Below are positions 12,716-21,842 of a DNA stretch of 24,449 nucleotides, piece by piece (the stretch's first letter is position 1; the number at the start of each line of letters is the position of its first letter). The notes beneath the pieces are model-generated. The model was not told where the DNA came from and did not search any database. It saw only the letters and a program-made list of their open reading frames with translations. This DNA is from a virus. The DNA is taken from positions 1-24,449 of the IMG/VR virus record IMGVR_UViG_3300006802_000544; one strand, 5' to 3'. The position numbers and the translations under genes are program-made.

Positions 12716-13111
12716 ATGTTGGATTACATTATAGTTTTCTTGTTTGGATTTGTCTTTTCTTGGTTTTTCACCTACGTAATGGCTTTAGGAAGTTCTGTTA
12801 AAGTCATTATTGACCTACAAAGAAGTTGTGCAAGCCTATTTATAATTAGTGAACAAGGGCTACAAGAAATTATGGAACTAAAATATATTGCTATGAAAGA
12901 AGCTAAAAGGTCAGAACATAATATAAATGCCCAACGGCGCATAGATAAAACGAATATCGATAGCATTAAAAAATCTATCATGAGAAATTATCTTGTTAAC
13001 TACCCAGAGAAATATTCACATGTAATGCGTTATTCTACTTGGGAAGAGATGCAGCAGTTCGTTAACGACATTGTCAAAGAAAGGAGAATCAACCATGACA
13101 AAAATTTCTAA
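12716..13111 (+). CDS. 131-aa N-terminally anchored membrane protein
   Basis: Residues 3-26 form a hydrophobic segment (IIVFLFGFVFSWFFTYVMAL). The rest is a basic, helical cytoplasmic domain (KYIAMKEAKRSEHN, RRIDKTNIDSIKKSIMRNY) ending in YSTWEEMQQFVNDIVKERR. No known domain. The ribosome site TTGGAG follows the terminator by a few bases, so this gene is either transcribed by read-through or from an unseen promoter. It overlaps the ClpP-like gene by 17 nt. Confidence 0.6.
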   Translation: MLDYIIVFLFGFVFSWFFTYVMALGSSVKVIIDLQRSCASLFIISEQGLQEIMELKYIAMKEAKRSEHNINAQRRIDKTNIDSIKKSIMRNYLVNYPEKYSHVMRYSTWEEMQQFVNDIVKERRINHDKNF

Positions 13112-13781
13112 AAAAGATAAAAAGTCTAAGAAAATCTCAGAAGAGGTTTCGACAGAGGAAGAGGTTTCAACAGAGGAAGAAGAAGCTCAGGGTCAAAAAA
13201 CAAGTATGTTAGATTTGTTAGGAGCGCTTCAGGGTGAAAAACCAGAAAACCCAGAAGCAAGAAGCATCATGTTTGTTGGTGCGATTGATGAAGAAAAATC
13301 TGCAGATTTGATTTCTGCTTTGTTGGTTCTTTCTCAGCAAAAAGCTCCAAACGAAGAACGAGCAAAGGATATTAAAATCTACATTTCCACTTATGGAGGA
13401 AGCGCAGATGAAATGTTGGCAATCTATGATGTAATGAACTACTGCAAACAATTCTGTGACATTGAGACTATTGGTCTTGGGAAAGTAATGTCAGCAGGAA
13501 CTCTTTTGCTTGCGGCAGGAACAAAAGGGAAACGTCGTTTGGGATCTCATTGTAGAGTCATGATTCACTCTGTTAATGGTGGGTCTGTTGGTGAACTTCA
13601 TAGCATTGAAAATGAAATAGAGCAAATGAAAGCACTTCAGGACAATTATATCCAGTGCCTTTCAGACGAAACAAGTATGACCAAAAGACAGATTCAAACA
13701 CTAATTAATAGAAAAGTAAACGTATATCTATCTGCTGAAGAAGCAATAGAAAAAGGTTTGGCAGACGAGGTTTTAAAATGA
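13095..13781 (+). CDS. ClpP-like serine protease (head-maturation or phage Clp protease)
   Basis: The 228-aa protein has a 50-residue Lys/Ser/Glu-rich N-terminal extension (two STEEEVSTEEE units) and then a ClpP/crotonase fold: FVGAIDEEKSADLI, IYISTYGGSADEMLAIYD, the nucleophile Ser133 in GKVMSAGTLLLAAG, His158 in RVMIHS, and SAEEAIEKGLADEVL. Ser-to-His spacing (25) equals E. coli ClpP. The third triad residue, four before SAEEA, is Asn209 instead of Asp. Placed among virion-like genes with no Clp ATPase, it may be the prohead maturation protease; a true ClpP hijacking host ClpX/A is the alternative. ATG 13095 has AAGGAG at 13081-13086; upstream in-frame TTG 13071 lies before that site. Confidence 0.8.
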   Translation: MTKISKKDKKSKKISEEVSTEEEVSTEEEEAQGQKTSMLDLLGALQGEKPENPEARSIMFVGAIDEEKSADLISALLVLSQQKAPNEERAKDIKIYISTYGGSADEMLAIYDVMNYCKQFCDIETIGLGKVMSAGTLLLAAGTKGKRRLGSHCRVMIHSVNGGSVGELHSIENEIEQMKALQDNYIQCLSDETSMTKRQIQTLINRKVNVYLSAEEAIEKGLADEVLK

Positions 13782-14017: not shown

Positions 14018-14911
14018 ATGGAAGATAAAATATTTTATAATGAAGGTTCCGCTGCTAAATTGGGATGGACTCCTGATTGGTTTGGGTGTTCAAAACATGG
14101 AGAAAAACTTGTTGCTGCGATTGAAAAGTTTCAAGAAGAACACGGCCTAACTGCTGACGGCTGCTGTGGTCCTACCACTTATCGTCGCATCTATAATCAC
14201 AGAGTTGCAAACTTTGAAGACCATGCTCCAATGTCTCATAAAGATAATTCTGAATCTTTTATTATTTATAATTCAGACTATTTCCCAATTGATTGGCCAA
14301 AGGTAAAGCTTTTCTTTGAAAGCGGTGGACTGAAGCTCCGCAAAGGATGGAAGCCATCAAAATACAAAAGAGATCCAAAGTTTTTCGTTTGCCACTGGGA
14401 TGTTTGTTTATCTTCAGAGACATGTCACAAAGTTCTTGAAAAAAGAGGTATCTCTGTTCATTTTGCTATTGACAATGACGGAACCATCTATCAGTTCATG
14501 GACATGAATGACATTGCATGGCATGCTGGAGGAAAGGTTTGGAATGACCGTTCTGTTGGTGTTGAAATAGCAAACGCTTATTACCCGAAGTACCAAGACT
14601 GGTATGTTAAAAGAGACTTTGGGAAGAGACCTTTGATAACAGATGCACATGTTCACGGAAAGAAACTTCCGGAACATCTTGGTTTTTATCCAATCCAGAT
14701 TGAAGCACTCAAAGCTCTCATGAAAGCTGTTCATCAAGCCACAGGAATCCCTCTCCAGACTCCTTTAGACAGATCAGGCAACACTAACACCAAGGTAAGC
14801 AAGAAAGCCTCTGAGGGTCGTTTTGAAGGGTTTGTAAGCCATTATCATTTGACTACTAGAAAGATAGATTGTGCTGGTTTAGATATTAAGAAGTTATTAG
14901 AGGAATTGTAA
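14018..14911 (+). CDS. endolysin: peptidoglycan-binding domain plus N-acetylmuramoyl-L-alanine amidase
   Basis: A 297-aa modular lysin. Residues about 10-60 form a PG_binding_1 unit (VAAIEKFQEEHGLTADGCCG then TTYRRIY). From about 115 on, an Amidase_2 catalytic domain has VCHWDVC (His126), SVHFAIDNDGTIYQFMD, AWHAGG (His169), VGVEIAN (Glu183) and a closing SHYHL (274-278) to RKIDCAG (Lys282, Cys285), so a His/His/Cys zinc site like T7 lysozyme is present. It would cut the amide between MurNAc and L-alanine at host lysis. No signal peptide is seen, so release would rely on a holin. GGAG lies 6 nt before ATG 14018. Confidence 0.9.
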   Translation: MEDKIFYNEGSAAKLGWTPDWFGCSKHGEKLVAAIEKFQEEHGLTADGCCGPTTYRRIYNHRVANFEDHAPMSHKDNSESFIIYNSDYFPIDWPKVKLFFESGGLKLRKGWKPSKYKRDPKFFVCHWDVCLSSETCHKVLEKRGISVHFAIDNDGTIYQFMDMNDIAWHAGGKVWNDRSVGVEIANAYYPKYQDWYVKRDFGKRPLITDAHVHGKKLPEHLGFYPIQIEALKALMKAVHQATGIPLQTPLDRSGNTNTKVSKKASEGRFEGFVSHYHLTTRKIDCAGLDIKKLLEEL

Positions 14912-16606: not shown

Positions 16607-18175
16607 ATGAAACATTATAACCAAGGTCAAACTCTTAACCAAAAAATCTTGGAAGGAGTTGACATTCTTGCGGACAATGTTGCGACGACTCTCGGTCCTC
16701 GAGGTCGCAATGTTGCCCTATACAACAAAGAACAAGACACACCTGTCATCACAAAAGATGGTGTGACAATCGCTAAGTTCATCACTTTAGATGACCCATT
16801 CCAAAATCTTGGAGCACAAGTTATAAAGCAAGCAGCAGAGGAAACTGTGAACTCTGCTGGAGATGGAACCACAACTGCAACAGTCTTATCTCGTGCAATC
16901 TTGAAAGAAGCACAAAGATATTGCACAGCAGGAGTTTCACCGGTTGAACTCAAAAGAGGCATGGACAAAGCAGTCACTGCAATAACAACTCGTCTAGATG
17001 AAATGGCAAGACCGATTCAGACTGTTGAAGACATTCGTCACATTGCAACTATCTCTGCAAACAACGACAAGTCTATTGGGCAGCTTATTGCAACCGCTAT
17101 CGACAAGGCTGGTAAAGATGGTTCTGTGCTCGTTGAAGAAGCTAGAAGCATGTCTACCTCATTAGATCTTATAGAAGGCTTCAGGTTTGATTCTGGCTAT
17201 GCTAGTAACACATTTATCACAGATGAAAGAAACGCAACTGTAAATTATGACAATCCACTTATTCTTGTTACAGATGAGAAAGTAGAACACGTTGATCAAA
17301 TAATGAAAGTGCTTGAGATTGCCGCTAGAGATAATCGACCTCTTGTTGTTATTTCAAATGACATCGAAGGACAGGCACTCGCTGCAATCATTGCAAATGC
17401 AGTTCGAGGAACAATGAAGATCTGTGCAATCAAAGCTCCACGTTATGGAGAAGAAAGAAGAAACATTCTGAAAGACCTTTGCATTAGCACTGGGGCAGCT
17501 TTCATTTCTAGGGAGAACTCAAAGACCCTTCGAGACATTCAACTTAAAGACTTTGGTCAATGCAATAGAATAAGTGTTACAAAAACTTGGACAACTATTG
17601 TAGGTGGAAAAGGAAACGAACCCCAGATAGATAGTAGAATAGATATGATTAAGTCTCAGATCCAACAAACAGAAAACCTTGCGGAATGTGAAAGGCTTCA
17701 AGAAAGAATCACGCGTCTTGCTTCTGGTGTTGCTGTTATTCGTGTTGGAGCACAAACTGAAGTTGAAATGATTGAGAAGAGACATCGGATTGATGATGCG
17801 CTTGAAGCTGTTCGGTCTGCTCAAGAACAAGGCATTATTCCCGGCGGTGGTGTTGCACTCATAAGAGCAACAAAAGACTTGTTCATCGAAACAGATAACG
17901 AAGAGCAAAATCTTGGTGCTCAAGTTATTCTTCGTGCTTGCGAAGTTCCTCTAAGACAAATGGCAATTAATGCTGGAGAATCACCTGACATTATTGTTTC
18001 TCAAGTCAAAGAACAAGAAGGAGATGTTGGTTATGATTTCTTAAATAGATGCATGGTTGGCACTTACAAAGTTGGAATCATTGATCCTTGTAAAGTAACA
18101 AAGTGTGCCCTAAAGAACGCGACATCCGCAGCTGGAACTTTATTAACAACATCTCACGCTATTGTTGATTGTTAG
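16607..18175 (+). CDS. groL: GroEL-type chaperonin (phage-encoded Hsp60)
   Basis: A 522-aa chaperonin with the nucleotide-site blocks TTLGPRGRNV (27-36), TKDGVTIAK (49-57, Asp51), AGDGTTTATVL (84-94, Asp86), and IDDALEAVRSAQEQG leading to IIPGGGVALIR with the catalytic-type Asp (E. coli Asp398 equivalent). The apical domain is present (EGFRFDSGY ASNTFI). Differences from E. coli include Thr in place of Tyr203 of the substrate-binding groove and a C-terminus ending SHAIVDC with no GGM repeats. No groES-like gene is in the window, so it must use host GroES, a distant phage co-chaperonin, or work as a single ring, as proposed for some jumbo phages. It probably folds phage proteins. It has its own promoter and stands apart from the virion block. 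Confidence 0.95.
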   Translation: MKHYNQGQTLNQKILEGVDILADNVATTLGPRGRNVALYNKEQDTPVITKDGVTIAKFITLDDPFQNLGAQVIKQAAEETVNSAGDGTTTATVLSRAILKEAQRYCTAGVSPVELKRGMDKAVTAITTRLDEMARPIQTVEDIRHIATISANNDKSIGQLIATAIDKAGKDGSVLVEEARSMSTSLDLIEGFRFDSGYASNTFITDERNATVNYDNPLILVTDEKVEHVDQIMKVLEIAARDNRPLVVISNDIEGQALAAIIANAVRGTMKICAIKAPRYGEERRNILKDLCISTGAAFISRENSKTLRDIQLKDFGQCNRISVTKTWTTIVGGKGNEPQIDSRIDMIKSQIQQTENLAECERLQERITRLASGVAVIRVGAQTEVEMIEKRHRIDDALEAVRSAQEQGIIPGGGVALIRATKDLFIETDNEEQNLGAQVILRACEVPLRQMAINAGESPDIIVSQVKEQEGDVGYDFLNRCMVGTYKVGIIDPCKVTKCALKNATSAAGTLLTTSHAIVDC

Positions 18176-18206: not shown

Positions 18207-18476
18207 ATGGGTAATGACGAAATATCAGATCTTAAAGAATCAATCATTAATTTGACTATGCAAATTCAACGTATGTCAGACAAACAAGATGAAATGTTAA
18301 CTGATGTCAAAACCATTAAGGATGCTGTTTATCATCCTGAAATTGGATTATACGCTCGTGTTAGAGACTTGGAACAATGGCAAGCAGGGGCCAATAAATT
18401 TATTTGGTCTGTCGGTCTGGCAGTTACAGGTCTCATTCTCGAAGCGATATACTCGGGACTATTCAATGGAGGTTAA
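18207..18476 (+). CDS. 89-aa coiled-coil plus C-terminal membrane segment (XhlA-like topology)
   Basis: The first 60 residues are helical with heptads (SDLKESIINLTMQIQRM to DVKTIKDAVY), then HPEIGLYARVRDLEQWQ, and a single hydrophobic span (about 65-86, IWSVGLAVTGLILEAIYS). That layout recalls hemolysin XhlA/holin-accessory proteins of phages, but sequence similarity is not demonstrated. ATG 18207 was chosen because AAAAGGAG (18191-18198) precedes it; the upstream in-frame TTG (18162) lies within groEL. It abuts the next gene directly. Confidence 0.55.
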   Translation: MGNDEISDLKESIINLTMQIQRMSDKQDEMLTDVKTIKDAVYHPEIGLYARVRDLEQWQAGANKFIWSVGLAVTGLILEAIYSGLFNGG

Positions 18477-19245: not shown

Positions 19246-19533
19246 ATGAAATATTATAAAATTATTTGCTGGAACGAGTGTCCTTATTGTCTTAAAGTAA
19301 AAATGGAGATGATAGAAAGAAAACTTCCTTTCGAATATTGTTCCGTCGATCACAGTAATGTTATGTTAAATTATTATAAAGCTATTTATAAACATGGTAC
19401 TGTGCCAATGATTGTTGAACTTAACACTTCAACAAATGAAGAAAATTTCATTGGAGGGTTTACAGATCTTATCGAGTACTTCGCCAAAGAAAATTCTCAG
19501 GGAAAAGTTTGCTCTCTTGATGGAACTAGCTGA
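19246..19533 (+). CDS. glutaredoxin
   Basis: A 95-aa thioredoxin-fold oxidoreductase with the classical dithiol CPYC motif (Cys12-Cys15), the TVPMI cis-proline loop (52-56, Pro54) and the glutathione-side GGFTDL (70-75). It would reduce phage or host disulfides, for example ribonucleotide reductase (not in this window), using glutathione. AGAGG precedes ATG 19246 at a normal distance. An in-frame upstream ATG at 19207 is not supported by a ribosome site. It overlaps the next gene by 14 nt. Confidence 0.88.
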   Translation: MKYYKIICWNECPYCLKVKMEMIERKLPFEYCSVDHSNVMLNYYKAIYKHGTVPMIVELNTSTNEENFIGGFTDLIEYFAKENSQGKVCSLDGTS

Positions 19534-19876
19534 ATATGATTTTGAGATCAGTGTTGAGTTTACTAATGGAGACAACTCTTACTGGATCCCTACACCTCTG
19601 GAAGAGGTTGAAGAAATAGGCCACAATGGAATCATAGACATTGGAGACGACCAGAGCGATTTTGAAAAACTAATTTCTCTCGTTCATGAAATAGGACATG
19701 TCGTTTATGACCTTGAAAGAAAAAGCAACTCTAAAAGAATAGTAATCTTTGAAGAATCTTTAGCTTGGTATCTTGGATATGACTATGCTTTAAAGTGTGG
19801 GATAGAAATAGATCTACAAGAATATGCAGAAAAAATAGAAATAGCTTTAAATTTATATATAAAGGAGACAAAATGA
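19520..19876 (+). CDS. HExxH zinc metallopeptidase-like protein
   Basis: A 118-aa protein with SLVHEIGHVV (53-62) giving His56, Glu57 and His60 of a zincin site and a candidate third ligand Glu78 or Glu79 in FEESLAWYLG, the spacing used by gluzincin-like small peptidases (ImmA/IrrE type has a related look). N-terminal residues form a short beta region. Start at ATG 19520 is the likeliest, with only a weak purine-rich site (CAGGGAAAAG) upstream, so the N-terminus is uncertain. Could regulate host or phage factors by cleavage; no substrate is visible. It overlaps the cupin start (ATGA). Confidence 0.6.
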   Translation: MELAEYDFEISVEFTNGDNSYWIPTPLEEVEEIGHNGIIDIGDDQSDFEKLISLVHEIGHVVYDLERKSNSKRIVIFEESLAWYLGYDYALKCGIEIDLQEYAEKIEIALNLYIKETK

Positions 19877-20220
19877 TTGTTGATAAACCATGGGGACATG
19901 AAAACATTTGGGCACTAACAGATAAATATGTTGGAAAAGTTTTGCATATAAATGAAGGTTCAAGATTATCTTTACAATACCACAAGGTTAAAGAAGAATC
20001 CATAATGGTTTTAGAAGGAACTCTAGAATTAGTTTTGGAAGAAAACTCAAGAAAACATAAAGAGTCTATAATTATGAACGCTGGGGACACCTTTCACATA
20101 ACCCCACTAACTATTCATAGATTCTGCGCTTCTCAAGGAACAGATGTAAAGATCCTAGAAGTTTCCACCACAGAACTTGATGACGTTGTAAGAATTGAAG
20201 ATGATCACGGGAGACAATAA
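19873..20220 (+). CDS. phosphomannose isomerase type II-like cupin
   Basis: A 115-aa single cupin domain matching the C-terminal half of bifunctional mannose-1-phosphate guanylyltransferase/isomerases: KPWGHENIW (5-13), SRLSLQYHKVKEESIMVLEG (30-49) with ligands Gln35, His37 and Glu42, AGDTFHITPLTIHRF (70-84) with His82, and ELDDVVRIEDDHGRQ at the end. It may interconvert fructose-6-P and mannose-6-P, or act on another sugar. GGAG precedes the ATG, which overlaps the preceding stop. A role in sugar metabolism or glycosylation is inferred. Confidence 0.8.
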   Translation: MIVDKPWGHENIWALTDKYVGKVLHINEGSRLSLQYHKVKEESIMVLEGTLELVLEENSRKHKESIIMNAGDTFHITPLTIHRFCASQGTDVKILEVSTTELDDVVRIEDDHGRQ

Positions 20221-20222
20221 AG

Positions 20223-20804
20223 ATGTTCTGGCTATTAACAACACTTTTGATGGCAAATGATGTAGATAAACAAAAAGACGAGAAAGTTATTTATGTTGCA
20301 CCTGCAAGCATAAGTGATCCTGCATTAGAGATTTATCAACAGTACATTGATAGTCTTGTTATTTCCGCAGCAGGAGTTAAATCCACTTGGGTTAGAAGAG
20401 AAACAGAAATGGATAACATTGTAATTTATGATAAGTATTCTATCGAAACAGCACAAGACACAGTCTGTAATTACATTAATCCTTTAGAGTGTGCAAAGGA
20501 AAATCTTCATTGGGTTTTGATAACAGAGATCTCTTCCGTTGAAAACCATGCTGTGATTAAACTTAAGCTTTACGATGAAAATTCGAAACTTATTTCAGAC
20601 ACGAATCTTTCATCACATTCATTTGAACCTTGTGTCCCAACACCAGATATTACCTATAACCCTAGAGACATCTATGGACTGAAACAGCAAATGTTACAAC
20701 AAGAAATTTTAAAAAATTGCAAAATGTTAGATTTAAAAATTCTTAACGAAGACATCGTTGCAGCTATCACAATGCTGTTTGCTAAGGCACAAGATAAACG
20801 ATAA
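20223..20804 (+). CDS. 193-aa probably exported hypothetical protein
   Basis: The N-terminus is short and hydrophobic (MFWLLTTLLMAND), like a brief signal peptide, and the rest is soluble with five cysteines (near 82, 90, 137 and 165-region), consistent with an extracytoplasmic protein. No domain is recognised; the middle (VLITEISSVENHAVIKLKLYD) is a beta segment. GGGAG at 20209-20213 precedes ATG 20223. It sits directly before the secreted protease, and the two could act in the same compartment. Confidence 0.5.
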   Translation: MFWLLTTLLMANDVDKQKDEKVIYVAPASISDPALEIYQQYIDSLVISAAGVKSTWVRRETEMDNIVIYDKYSIETAQDTVCNYINPLECAKENLHWVLITEISSVENHAVIKLKLYDENSKLISDTNLSSHSFEPCVPTPDITYNPRDIYGLKQQMLQQEILKNCKMLDLKILNEDIVAAITMLFAKAQDKR

Positions 20805-20875
20805 GCCCCAGATTCTCTACGACATCGAAACTTTTTGCTTTTCATAACCTAGTTACTATTAGGGGGGGAAGTAAA

Positions 20876-21634
20876 ATGTTTCGTTTTCTTTTATACACAC
20901 TAATAGCATTGATGCCACCGGCAAATGCTAGCATGGATTTTGTTAATGAAATCCTAAAAAACACAAAATTTGATTTAGGCCCTGAATTTAATGATGCTTA
21001 CACTGCAAACGTAGATGCAAATGCACCTAAAGGACTAAAGGACTCCTACTTATCCTCAGTAGTAATTGAGACTTGGTCAGGAGGAGCGCCAATTGGCTCT
21101 GGTTCAGGAAATTATTTTAAACTTGGAAAAGATAGATTTATTATAACAGCTGCCCATGTTGTTTTAGGGTCTGAGGATGTTATTATCATTGAAAAAAGTC
21201 TCTCATTTACTGAAGCAAAAGTAGTCTATGTTTCAGAAGAAAATGACATAGCCGTTCTAGTTCCAAAAGAAAAACTAAGATTCACCAAGGCTTTGCATTT
21301 TAAGATGGATAAGAAAAATGAGATGGGCGAAAAAGTTTATCACACCGGACATCCTGCAAGAGAAGGTTGGCATATGTCTGAAGGTCTACTTACAGGAACA
21401 AGAGAGGACTTCTTGTTGATCAACACTTTTGCATGGCCCGGTTCATCTGGATCTGTTGTTTTCGACGAATCTGGTAGGGTTATTGGTGTGCTCTCATCTA
21501 TTAGGATCGATGTTATTATGCAAATTTTTCCACAGTTTATAGAACATATTGTCAGCGCCAGCAACATAAAGAACTTGGAGATGGATTTATTGAAGGAAGC
21601 ATTAAGGGATGCAAGAAAATATAGAACAAATTGA
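20876..21634 (+). CDS. secreted trypsin-fold serine protease (S1/V8-HtrA type)
   Basis: A 252-aa protease with an N-terminal signal peptide (about 1-18, hydrophobic LLYTLIALM, cleavage likely after ANA). The chymotrypsin-fold triad is present: His94 in ITAAHVV, Asp124 in ENDIAVL and Ser191 in WPGSSGSVVF. No PDZ domain follows. It would cut proteins in the periplasm or envelope, possibly for lysis, receptor change or exclusion; the substrate is unknown. The ribosome site is odd, a run of seven G (20862-20868) then AAG. It sits beside another apparently exported gene. Phage-encoded secreted S1 proteases are uncommon to my knowledge. Confidence 0.85.
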   Translation: MFRFLLYTLIALMPPANASMDFVNEILKNTKFDLGPEFNDAYTANVDANAPKGLKDSYLSSVVIETWSGGAPIGSGSGNYFKLGKDRFIITAAHVVLGSEDVIIIEKSLSFTEAKVVYVSEENDIAVLVPKEKLRFTKALHFKMDKKNEMGEKVYHTGHPAREGWHMSEGLLTGTREDFLLINTFAWPGSSGSVVFDESGRVIGVLSSIRIDVIMQIFPQFIEHIVSASNIKNLEMDLLKEALRDARKYRTN

Positions 21635-21842
21635 TGTCGGCACCTTGATAAGAGACGGAAGCAAGATAGGAATTATCTATCGTGAGATTAAATCCGGAAC
21701 TTGGACAGACCAACCTTTGTTCAACTGGCAGACTAATTTCGAAATTTATTATGACGATGGGACGGTTTGTGTTATGGGTAAAGAAACTTTATTAAGATTA
21801 GTTTCCGGAGGGAAAGTAGAGATATTGGAGTCAAAAGAATGA
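21609..21842 (+). CDS. 77-aa conserved-type phage protein
   Basis: It reads VGTLIRDGSKIGIIYREIKS (9-28) then LFNWQTNFEIYYDDG and CVMGKETLLRLVSGGKVEIL, a beta-rich pattern I recall from small phage proteins that bear the same VGxLVRDG opening. Function unassigned. It overlaps the protease gene by 26 nt in another frame; AAGGA at 21593-21597 is the best ribosome site. Confidence 0.5.
   Translation: MQENIEQIDVGTLIRDGSKIGIIYREIKSGTWTDQPLFNWQTNFEIYYDDGTVCVMGKETLLRLVSGGKVEILESKE

Follow-up and report, generated by a model that had tools for sequence, protein, structure and literature searches.

The finding of two adjacent genes for exported-looking proteins in a phage, one of them a protease, raised the question of what a virus might do in the envelope of its host with such a pair, and whether the two proteins work together at all. 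The locus lies in a 24.4-kb IMG/VR virus record (24,449 nucleotides; the whole stretch is referred to below as the window). Its genes and the hairpin described below between 13071 and 21842 lie on the plus strand. The original prediction placed open reading frames at 20223-20804 (193 aa, here called the partner) and 20876-21634 (252 aa, the protease), and both were found. Its reading of the second as a trypsin-fold protease with a complete His94-Asp124-Ser191 triad was borne out by a match to Pfam Trypsin_2 (PF13365; E 1.4e-18, 68.5 bits against a curated cut-off of 27.6) and by the triad itself, which was unchanged across 31 divergent aligned homologues. In profile alignments the three residues (codons at 21155-21157, 21245-21247 and 21446-21448) matched the HtrA triad position for position, the serine motif PGSSGS aligning with HtrA PGNSGG. 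The AlphaFold2 model (all structure predictions were of single chains) had a mean pLDDT of 79.3, with most of the core above 90 and poor regions at residues 17-44 and 212-222. The fold nearest to this model was DegS without its PDZ domain (DegS-deltaPDZ; Foldseek E 4.4e-14), for which VIA-align gave Z 22.2 and an rmsd of 3.3 over 192 residues, and the remaining HtrA members scored 1-2 Z units away. No PDZ domain was seen in the protease: the Pfam search gave no PDZ match, 61 residues follow Ser191 and the model ends with one helix. Because a PDZ domain belongs to the definition of MEROPS family S1C, we class the protein as HtrA-like rather than as a full HtrA. Among the cellular proteins of Myxococcota that match the protease profile, open frames range over 317-1285 aa, with most at about 400-600. 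In close relative pairs (L098/L100 and L099/L101), dN/dS was about 0.06-0.07, indicating purifying selection on both the protease and the partner.

Single-protein scans of viral contigs gave no relatives, and these were reached through the GroEL encoded upstream in the window, followed by alignment and profile scans. Through GroEL, 80 related loci were recovered, of which L001, on a 191.7-kb contig referred to here as G001, was the closest at 85%; the protease was present in 17 of these loci and the partner in two, and the subsequent scans brought the set to 84 viral protease homologues. Since G001 encodes a T4-type terminase, portal, major head and tail sheath, we assign the window by gene content to a group of large T4-like myoviruses with genomes of about 190 kb. 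Cultured phages yielded only distant matches to the protease (17 of 50,697 records, 24-31% identity) and none to the partner. A scan of bacterial genomes with the protease found only distant proteins, 25-41% identical over part of the length, and the same scan with the partner gave no match; nor was the partner found among 235 Myxococcota genomes.

As to the host, one G001 lipoprotein carries HYDIN-like Ig repeats and weakly matches VWA. Relatives over its full length occur in Myxococcota (matches in 96/140 genomes, best 2.8e-67), with shorter matches in Bdellovibrionota (98/144), weak ones in Bacteroidota (38/148) and no match in 150 Pseudomonadota genomes; phylum names were taken from the record titles of the centre genomes. 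This is evidence, although not proof, that the host of G001 belongs to the Myxococcota, and by kinship with G001 the window probably has a marine Myxococcota host. The lipoprotein adjoins a membrane-anchored metzincin-like protein (the two together at G001 71165-73257, minus strand; L084 11165-11677 and 11671-13257), which has the motif HELGHAFGMRH...MMHP and matches Pfam Peptidase_M10 at E 0.0005, under the cut-off. The metzincin-like protein appears to be a second exported protease, and its neighbour, being widespread in Myxococcota, would serve as the host clue.

Two further observations concern protein N-termini in this virus group. Five small ORFs on the minus strand of G001 (61718, 68559, 176748, 178910 and 179169; loci L084 and L089) share a motif like MKITKxxLxxIIxEE, which resembles the T4 capsid-targeting leader and could mark head-packaged proteins. 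In the window, the ORFs at 958, 2546, 4590 and 8129 are listed from TTG and begin MEDTM or MEDNM, because the sequence TTGGAGGAT-ACA/AAC-ATG carries their Shine-Dalgarno; the true start is probably the ATG four codons in.

The original prediction ascribed a signal peptide to the protease and described the neighbouring protein as exported-looking and Cys-containing, and comparison with relatives agreed with it on both counts. Of 79 protease homologues, 97% had a hydrophobic N-terminal 8-mer, as did all 14 partner homologues, compared with 0-15% in nine neighbouring gene families from the same loci treated in the same way, so that export signals are more frequent in the two proteins than chance would predict from sequence. 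The protease signal occupies 20876-20929 (MFRFLLYTLIALMPPANA|S) and the short signal of the partner 20223-20255 (MFWLLTTLLMA|ND), both cleavage sites being placed by eye; in several partner homologues the stretch ends A-x-A ahead of an acidic residue. Nearly all of the 84 viral proteases begin with a signal or an anchor, in most cases a short lipobox, and a simple motif found a lipobox-like Cys in 54 of them, for the most part after only 6-11 residues (for example MLFLLSC and MLLSLILAC). The window protease lacks the lipobox Cys by which bacterial lipoproteins are recognised, and its signal is of the cleavable type. In five relatives (L188-L190, L192 and L198) a signal-anchor-like start (MRYIKVIILGIITLSMMGIGPFIGK) replaces the lipobox while the surrounding cassette is unchanged. 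Lipobox signals this short are unusual by E. coli standards. Similar starts occur on other G001 proteins (MLLLGVLFAC and MKYLLPLLMLSC), and because a related cellular lipoprotein of a Myxococcota genome (L229) also begins with one (MLLLSLLVAC), they are plausible in the likely host. The protease would therefore be expected, on these signals, to be exported in vivo.

The partner has four cysteines, at residues 82, 90, 137 and 166. Cys82 and Cys90 are kept in 15/15 relatives and Cys137 and Cys166 in 12/15, the latter two being jointly missing in L097, L102 and L173. Such paired loss beside an invariant pair is what two disulfides formed in an oxidising compartment would lead one to expect, and the partner probably carries two. 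By sequence it gave no convincing family in Pfam, NCBIfam, PHROG or PDB, and its AlphaFold2 model was too poor to use (pLDDT 44.5), making the fold matches meaningless. The spacing of the cysteines and the strand pattern had given the idea of an LpoB/TolB/CsgG-like domain, which was dropped when hhalign against Myxococcota LpoB returned a probability of 0.1%.

Homologues of the partner were found only directly upstream of the protease. In all 15 records that carry it, it is the next gene upstream, at a gap of 50-82 nt, and a scan started from the partner gave only two records, both of which also have the protease. The homologue sets were collected through the protease or GroEL, so that copies of the partner elsewhere could have been missed by this count. 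Thus the co-occurrence expected of the gene pair held in other phages, but the pairing is not general: the partner is absent from 69 of the 84 viral protease homologues, most of which bear a lipobox-like anchor. Two changes are needed to map partner presence on the tree, and the partner could have been gained just once, in one branch. We conclude that the protease-partner pair is real but confined to one branch. The original prediction had named two findings that would speak against it, genes unlinked in relatives and a cytoplasmic protease, and neither was encountered. The lipobox Cys is missing in 11/15 carriers, and cassette members without the partner have a lipobox or membrane-anchor-like start on the protease. 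However, a lipobox-like Cys is kept, along with a PPANA-type site, in four of the 15 carriers, so that partner and lipid anchor do not strictly exclude each other, and because the carriers are essentially one branch a tie between partner presence and anchor loss is no more than suggestive.

The gene neighbourhood of the protease was similar at nearly all loci: GroEL, a coiled-coil membrane protein, three small genes, glutaredoxin, then optionally an M78-like gene, a cupin and the partner, followed by the protease and a 77-aa gene. In the window, the cassette is headed by GroEL (16607-18175; Pfam Cpn60, 1.5e-64) and continues with the coiled-coil protein, which has a C-terminal membrane segment and was identified by inspection and synteny, with no significant family match (18207-18476). 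The glutaredoxin-like gene follows (19246-19533; Pfam Glutaredoxin, 2.4e-6), then a cupin of the mannose-6-phosphate isomerase C-terminal type immediately upstream of the pair (19873-20220; Pfam E 3.4e-10). Downstream, the near-constant 77-aa gene overlaps the protease 3' end (21609-21842; a family of 45 in the loci, with no Pfam match). A ClpP-like protease, a further proteostasis gene, lies nearby (13071-13781; Pfam CLP_protease, 5.1e-38); ClpS is encoded in G001, and Hsp20-like genes adjoin the protease in some relatives. Certain distant protease homologues (e.g. L180, L183-L187, L196 and L199-L202) have other gene contexts with no GroEL beside them. An exported protein of 384-396 aa with no Pfam match (F40, of 392 aa) lies just upstream of the partner in L098 (6141-7319), L100 and L171, and in L126 and L181, which lack the partner, a protein of the same type precedes the protease, suggesting that the site upstream of the protease collects exported genes.

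Immediately before the protease start, a hairpin at 20836-20873, built of an inner stem (20848-20853/20858-20863) and an outer one (20836-20843/20866-20873), pairs the Shine-Dalgarno region, with a minimum free energy of -12.7 kcal/mol and a z of -2.8. Most homologues have a stem at this position, L182 and L103 among them, with the G-rich Shine-Dalgarno as its 3' arm; TAnTTA is nearly invariant in the loop region, and the hairpin is also present in homologues with other gene contexts (L180, L183, L194 and L195). As variable loop length shifts the pairs in a MAFFT alignment (A5), an arm-swap test was chosen over a covariation count. Across 34 homologues the two arms co-varied: own arms paired at a mean of -12.9 kcal/mol and swapped arms at -10.0 (sd 0.4; 0/500 permutations), a difference from which relatedness was not removed. 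Many copies of the motif read ACTATAGGG, and a role as a general phage promoter was considered; this is unlikely, the window and G001 having one copy each, before the protease, and none outside this gene. Rfam gave no match at the window hairpin. A stem that pairs the Shine-Dalgarno and has support across relatives is what would be looked for in a translational operator or RNA thermometer, and the hairpin is possibly one of these. In L007 (5950-5982) the stem has 14 pairs and a z of -5.1, and copies of this type have a T-run after the stem and could be attenuators. Unrestrained HtrA activity harms cells, over-activated DegP in the periplasm inhibiting the growth of E. coli (PMC7529758), and this would explain a tight translational control of the protease.

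The original prediction had included neither the HtrA/DegS-like fold, nor the cassette headed by GroEL, nor the hairpin on the Shine-Dalgarno. Several known systems come close. With the DegS/HtrA family (MEROPS S1C; E. coli DegS, DegP and DegQ) the phage protease has in common the trypsin fold, the His-Asp-Ser order and a predicted envelope location, with profile matches down to E 1e-12 and a fold match at Z 22. It differs in having no PDZ domain, a length of only about 250 aa and 17-25% identity, in the lipoprotein-like appearance of many relatives, and in being phage-encoded beside GroEL. Small phage-encoded Trypsin_2-type proteases are likewise known from Rhizobium phage AF3 (annotated as an HtrA protease/chaperone, and a fold match to our protease in BFVD), from Rhizobium phage 16-3 (p036) and as PHROG 9683, which 29/31 members of the protease family match. 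However, identity to these is at most about 31% over the core, the cultured phages are without the partner, and neither the GroEL cassette nor the hairpin was seen there. As for the hairpin, a phage gene with a Shine-Dalgarno-masking thermometer has been reported, blyA of the SPbeta prophage (PMC10586365), as an example of the fourU type. The fourU elements also have a short stem pairing the Shine-Dalgarno just ahead of the start codon, whereas the hairpin described here has a C/T-rich 5' arm and a conserved TAnTTA in the loop and is tied to one gene family.

Among possible roles the original prediction had named changes to host surface proteins, help with lysis and exclusion of rivals. We propose, with a probability of about one half, that the envelope-targeted PDZ-less HtrA-like protease is the envelope arm of a phage proteostasis or takeover module. 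Computation establishes the fold, the triad, the signal or anchor at the N-terminus, the cassette, linkage to the partner and the hairpin; from these we infer export in vivo, protease activity in the host envelope, a complex with the partner, substrates and a purpose. With its Shine-Dalgarno inside a hairpin, translation of the protease would be held back or conditional; the host would export the product through its short signal, and the host envelope would be its site of action. Most relatives would tether it as a lipoprotein, and a few would do so through a membrane anchor. In the window's own branch, signal peptidase would release it, or it would be only loosely held, and a second exported, disulfide-bonded protein would be co-produced from the gene directly upstream. 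This partner would most likely bind the protease or its substrates, as an anchor, an adaptor or a restraint. The main job would be to cleave host or misfolded envelope proteins during infection, as the extracytoplasmic arm of a set that includes the phage GroEL, ClpP and glutaredoxin and, in relatives, Hsp20 and ClpS. The proteostasis part of this is built on the neighbours, and adjacent phage genes need not share a pathway. A more specific form is a two-protein envelope effector, in which a PDZ-less HtrA-type protease, having given up its lipid anchor in one branch, is steered by a disulfide-bonded partner that is exported on its own, is made under the control of a gene-dedicated RNA hairpin, and reworks the envelope of a Myxococcota host during infection; taken as a whole this is speculative and we hold it only tentatively.

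The place of the partner in this proposal could be questioned, as it may be an unrelated exported gene that entered this upstream site on a single occasion and has simply been inherited since, sharing no function with the protease. The distribution of the partner fits a single gain in one branch, most protease homologues do without it, and a second exported gene, F40, is found at the same place. Against this, no gene intervenes between partner and protease in any of the 15 carriers, even though protease identity falls to about 35% and other neighbours come and go, and the lipobox Cys is also missing in most carriers. We regard such a passive partner as possible, if somewhat doubtful. The presence of F40, also exported, at this site would also suit superinfection exclusion, in which a protease in the envelope, given reach or specificity by the partner, cuts proteins of the host surface or periplasm on which incoming phages depend; envelope targeting is conserved (lipobox, membrane anchor or signal peptide), and a branch-specific accessory gene suits an arms race. 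However, the protease keeps company with genes of the GroEL/ClpP/glutaredoxin type and not with receptor-binding or immunity genes, the dN/dS of about 0.06 in close pairs indicates purifying selection, and no known exclusion protein of this kind was found in the literature, all of which make exclusion unlikely.

Roles in lysis or in host signalling appear weaker. A protease that loosens the links between outer membrane and peptidoglycan late in infection would agree with the lipoprotein-type start of most relatives, with a hairpin over the ribosome site that could delay synthesis, and with an endolysin (PG_binding_1 plus Amidase_2, Pfam 1.7e-19) at 14018-14911, about 6 kb upstream. But this endolysin lies outside the constant GroEL-to-protease cassette. 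In G001, the closest long relative, the protease is at 101 kb, whereas small membrane proteins of holin/spanin type, recognised by inspection and unmatched in PHROG, are at 179-181 kb; this separation of about 78 kb argues against a dedicated lysis gene. Neither protease nor partner matched a lysis PHROG. We consider a lysis helper improbable. More improbable still is an unrestrained mimic of DegS, lacking the PDZ domain, that cuts a host anti-sigma factor and so sets off an envelope stress response suiting the phage. DegS without its PDZ domain is constitutively active and is the closest fold (Z 22.2), and membrane-anchored versions of the protease are known (L188-L190, L192 and L198); yet with other HtrA members scoring so near, DegS is not singled out. 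In E. coli, a lipoprotein residue at +2 other than Asp directs the protein to the outer membrane, and in the lipobox signals that most relatives carry this residue is mostly not Asp, which by that rule points to the outer membrane.

Since phage HtrA-like proteases are already annotated, the protease is not a new kind of protein; what sets it apart as a new form is its anchoring in the envelope, together with the partner, the cassette and the hairpin. The literature searched held no description of such a protease-partner pair in a phage, and to our knowledge the phages of Myxococcota are poorly known. Lysis proteins and exclusion proteins are the main known means by which phages act on the host envelope. 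A tethered or secreted protease that is conserved in a phage lineage and comes with an accessory partner and its own translation switch would be another such means, working on the envelope from inside, and the set of protease, partner and hairpin makes a simple, testable system.
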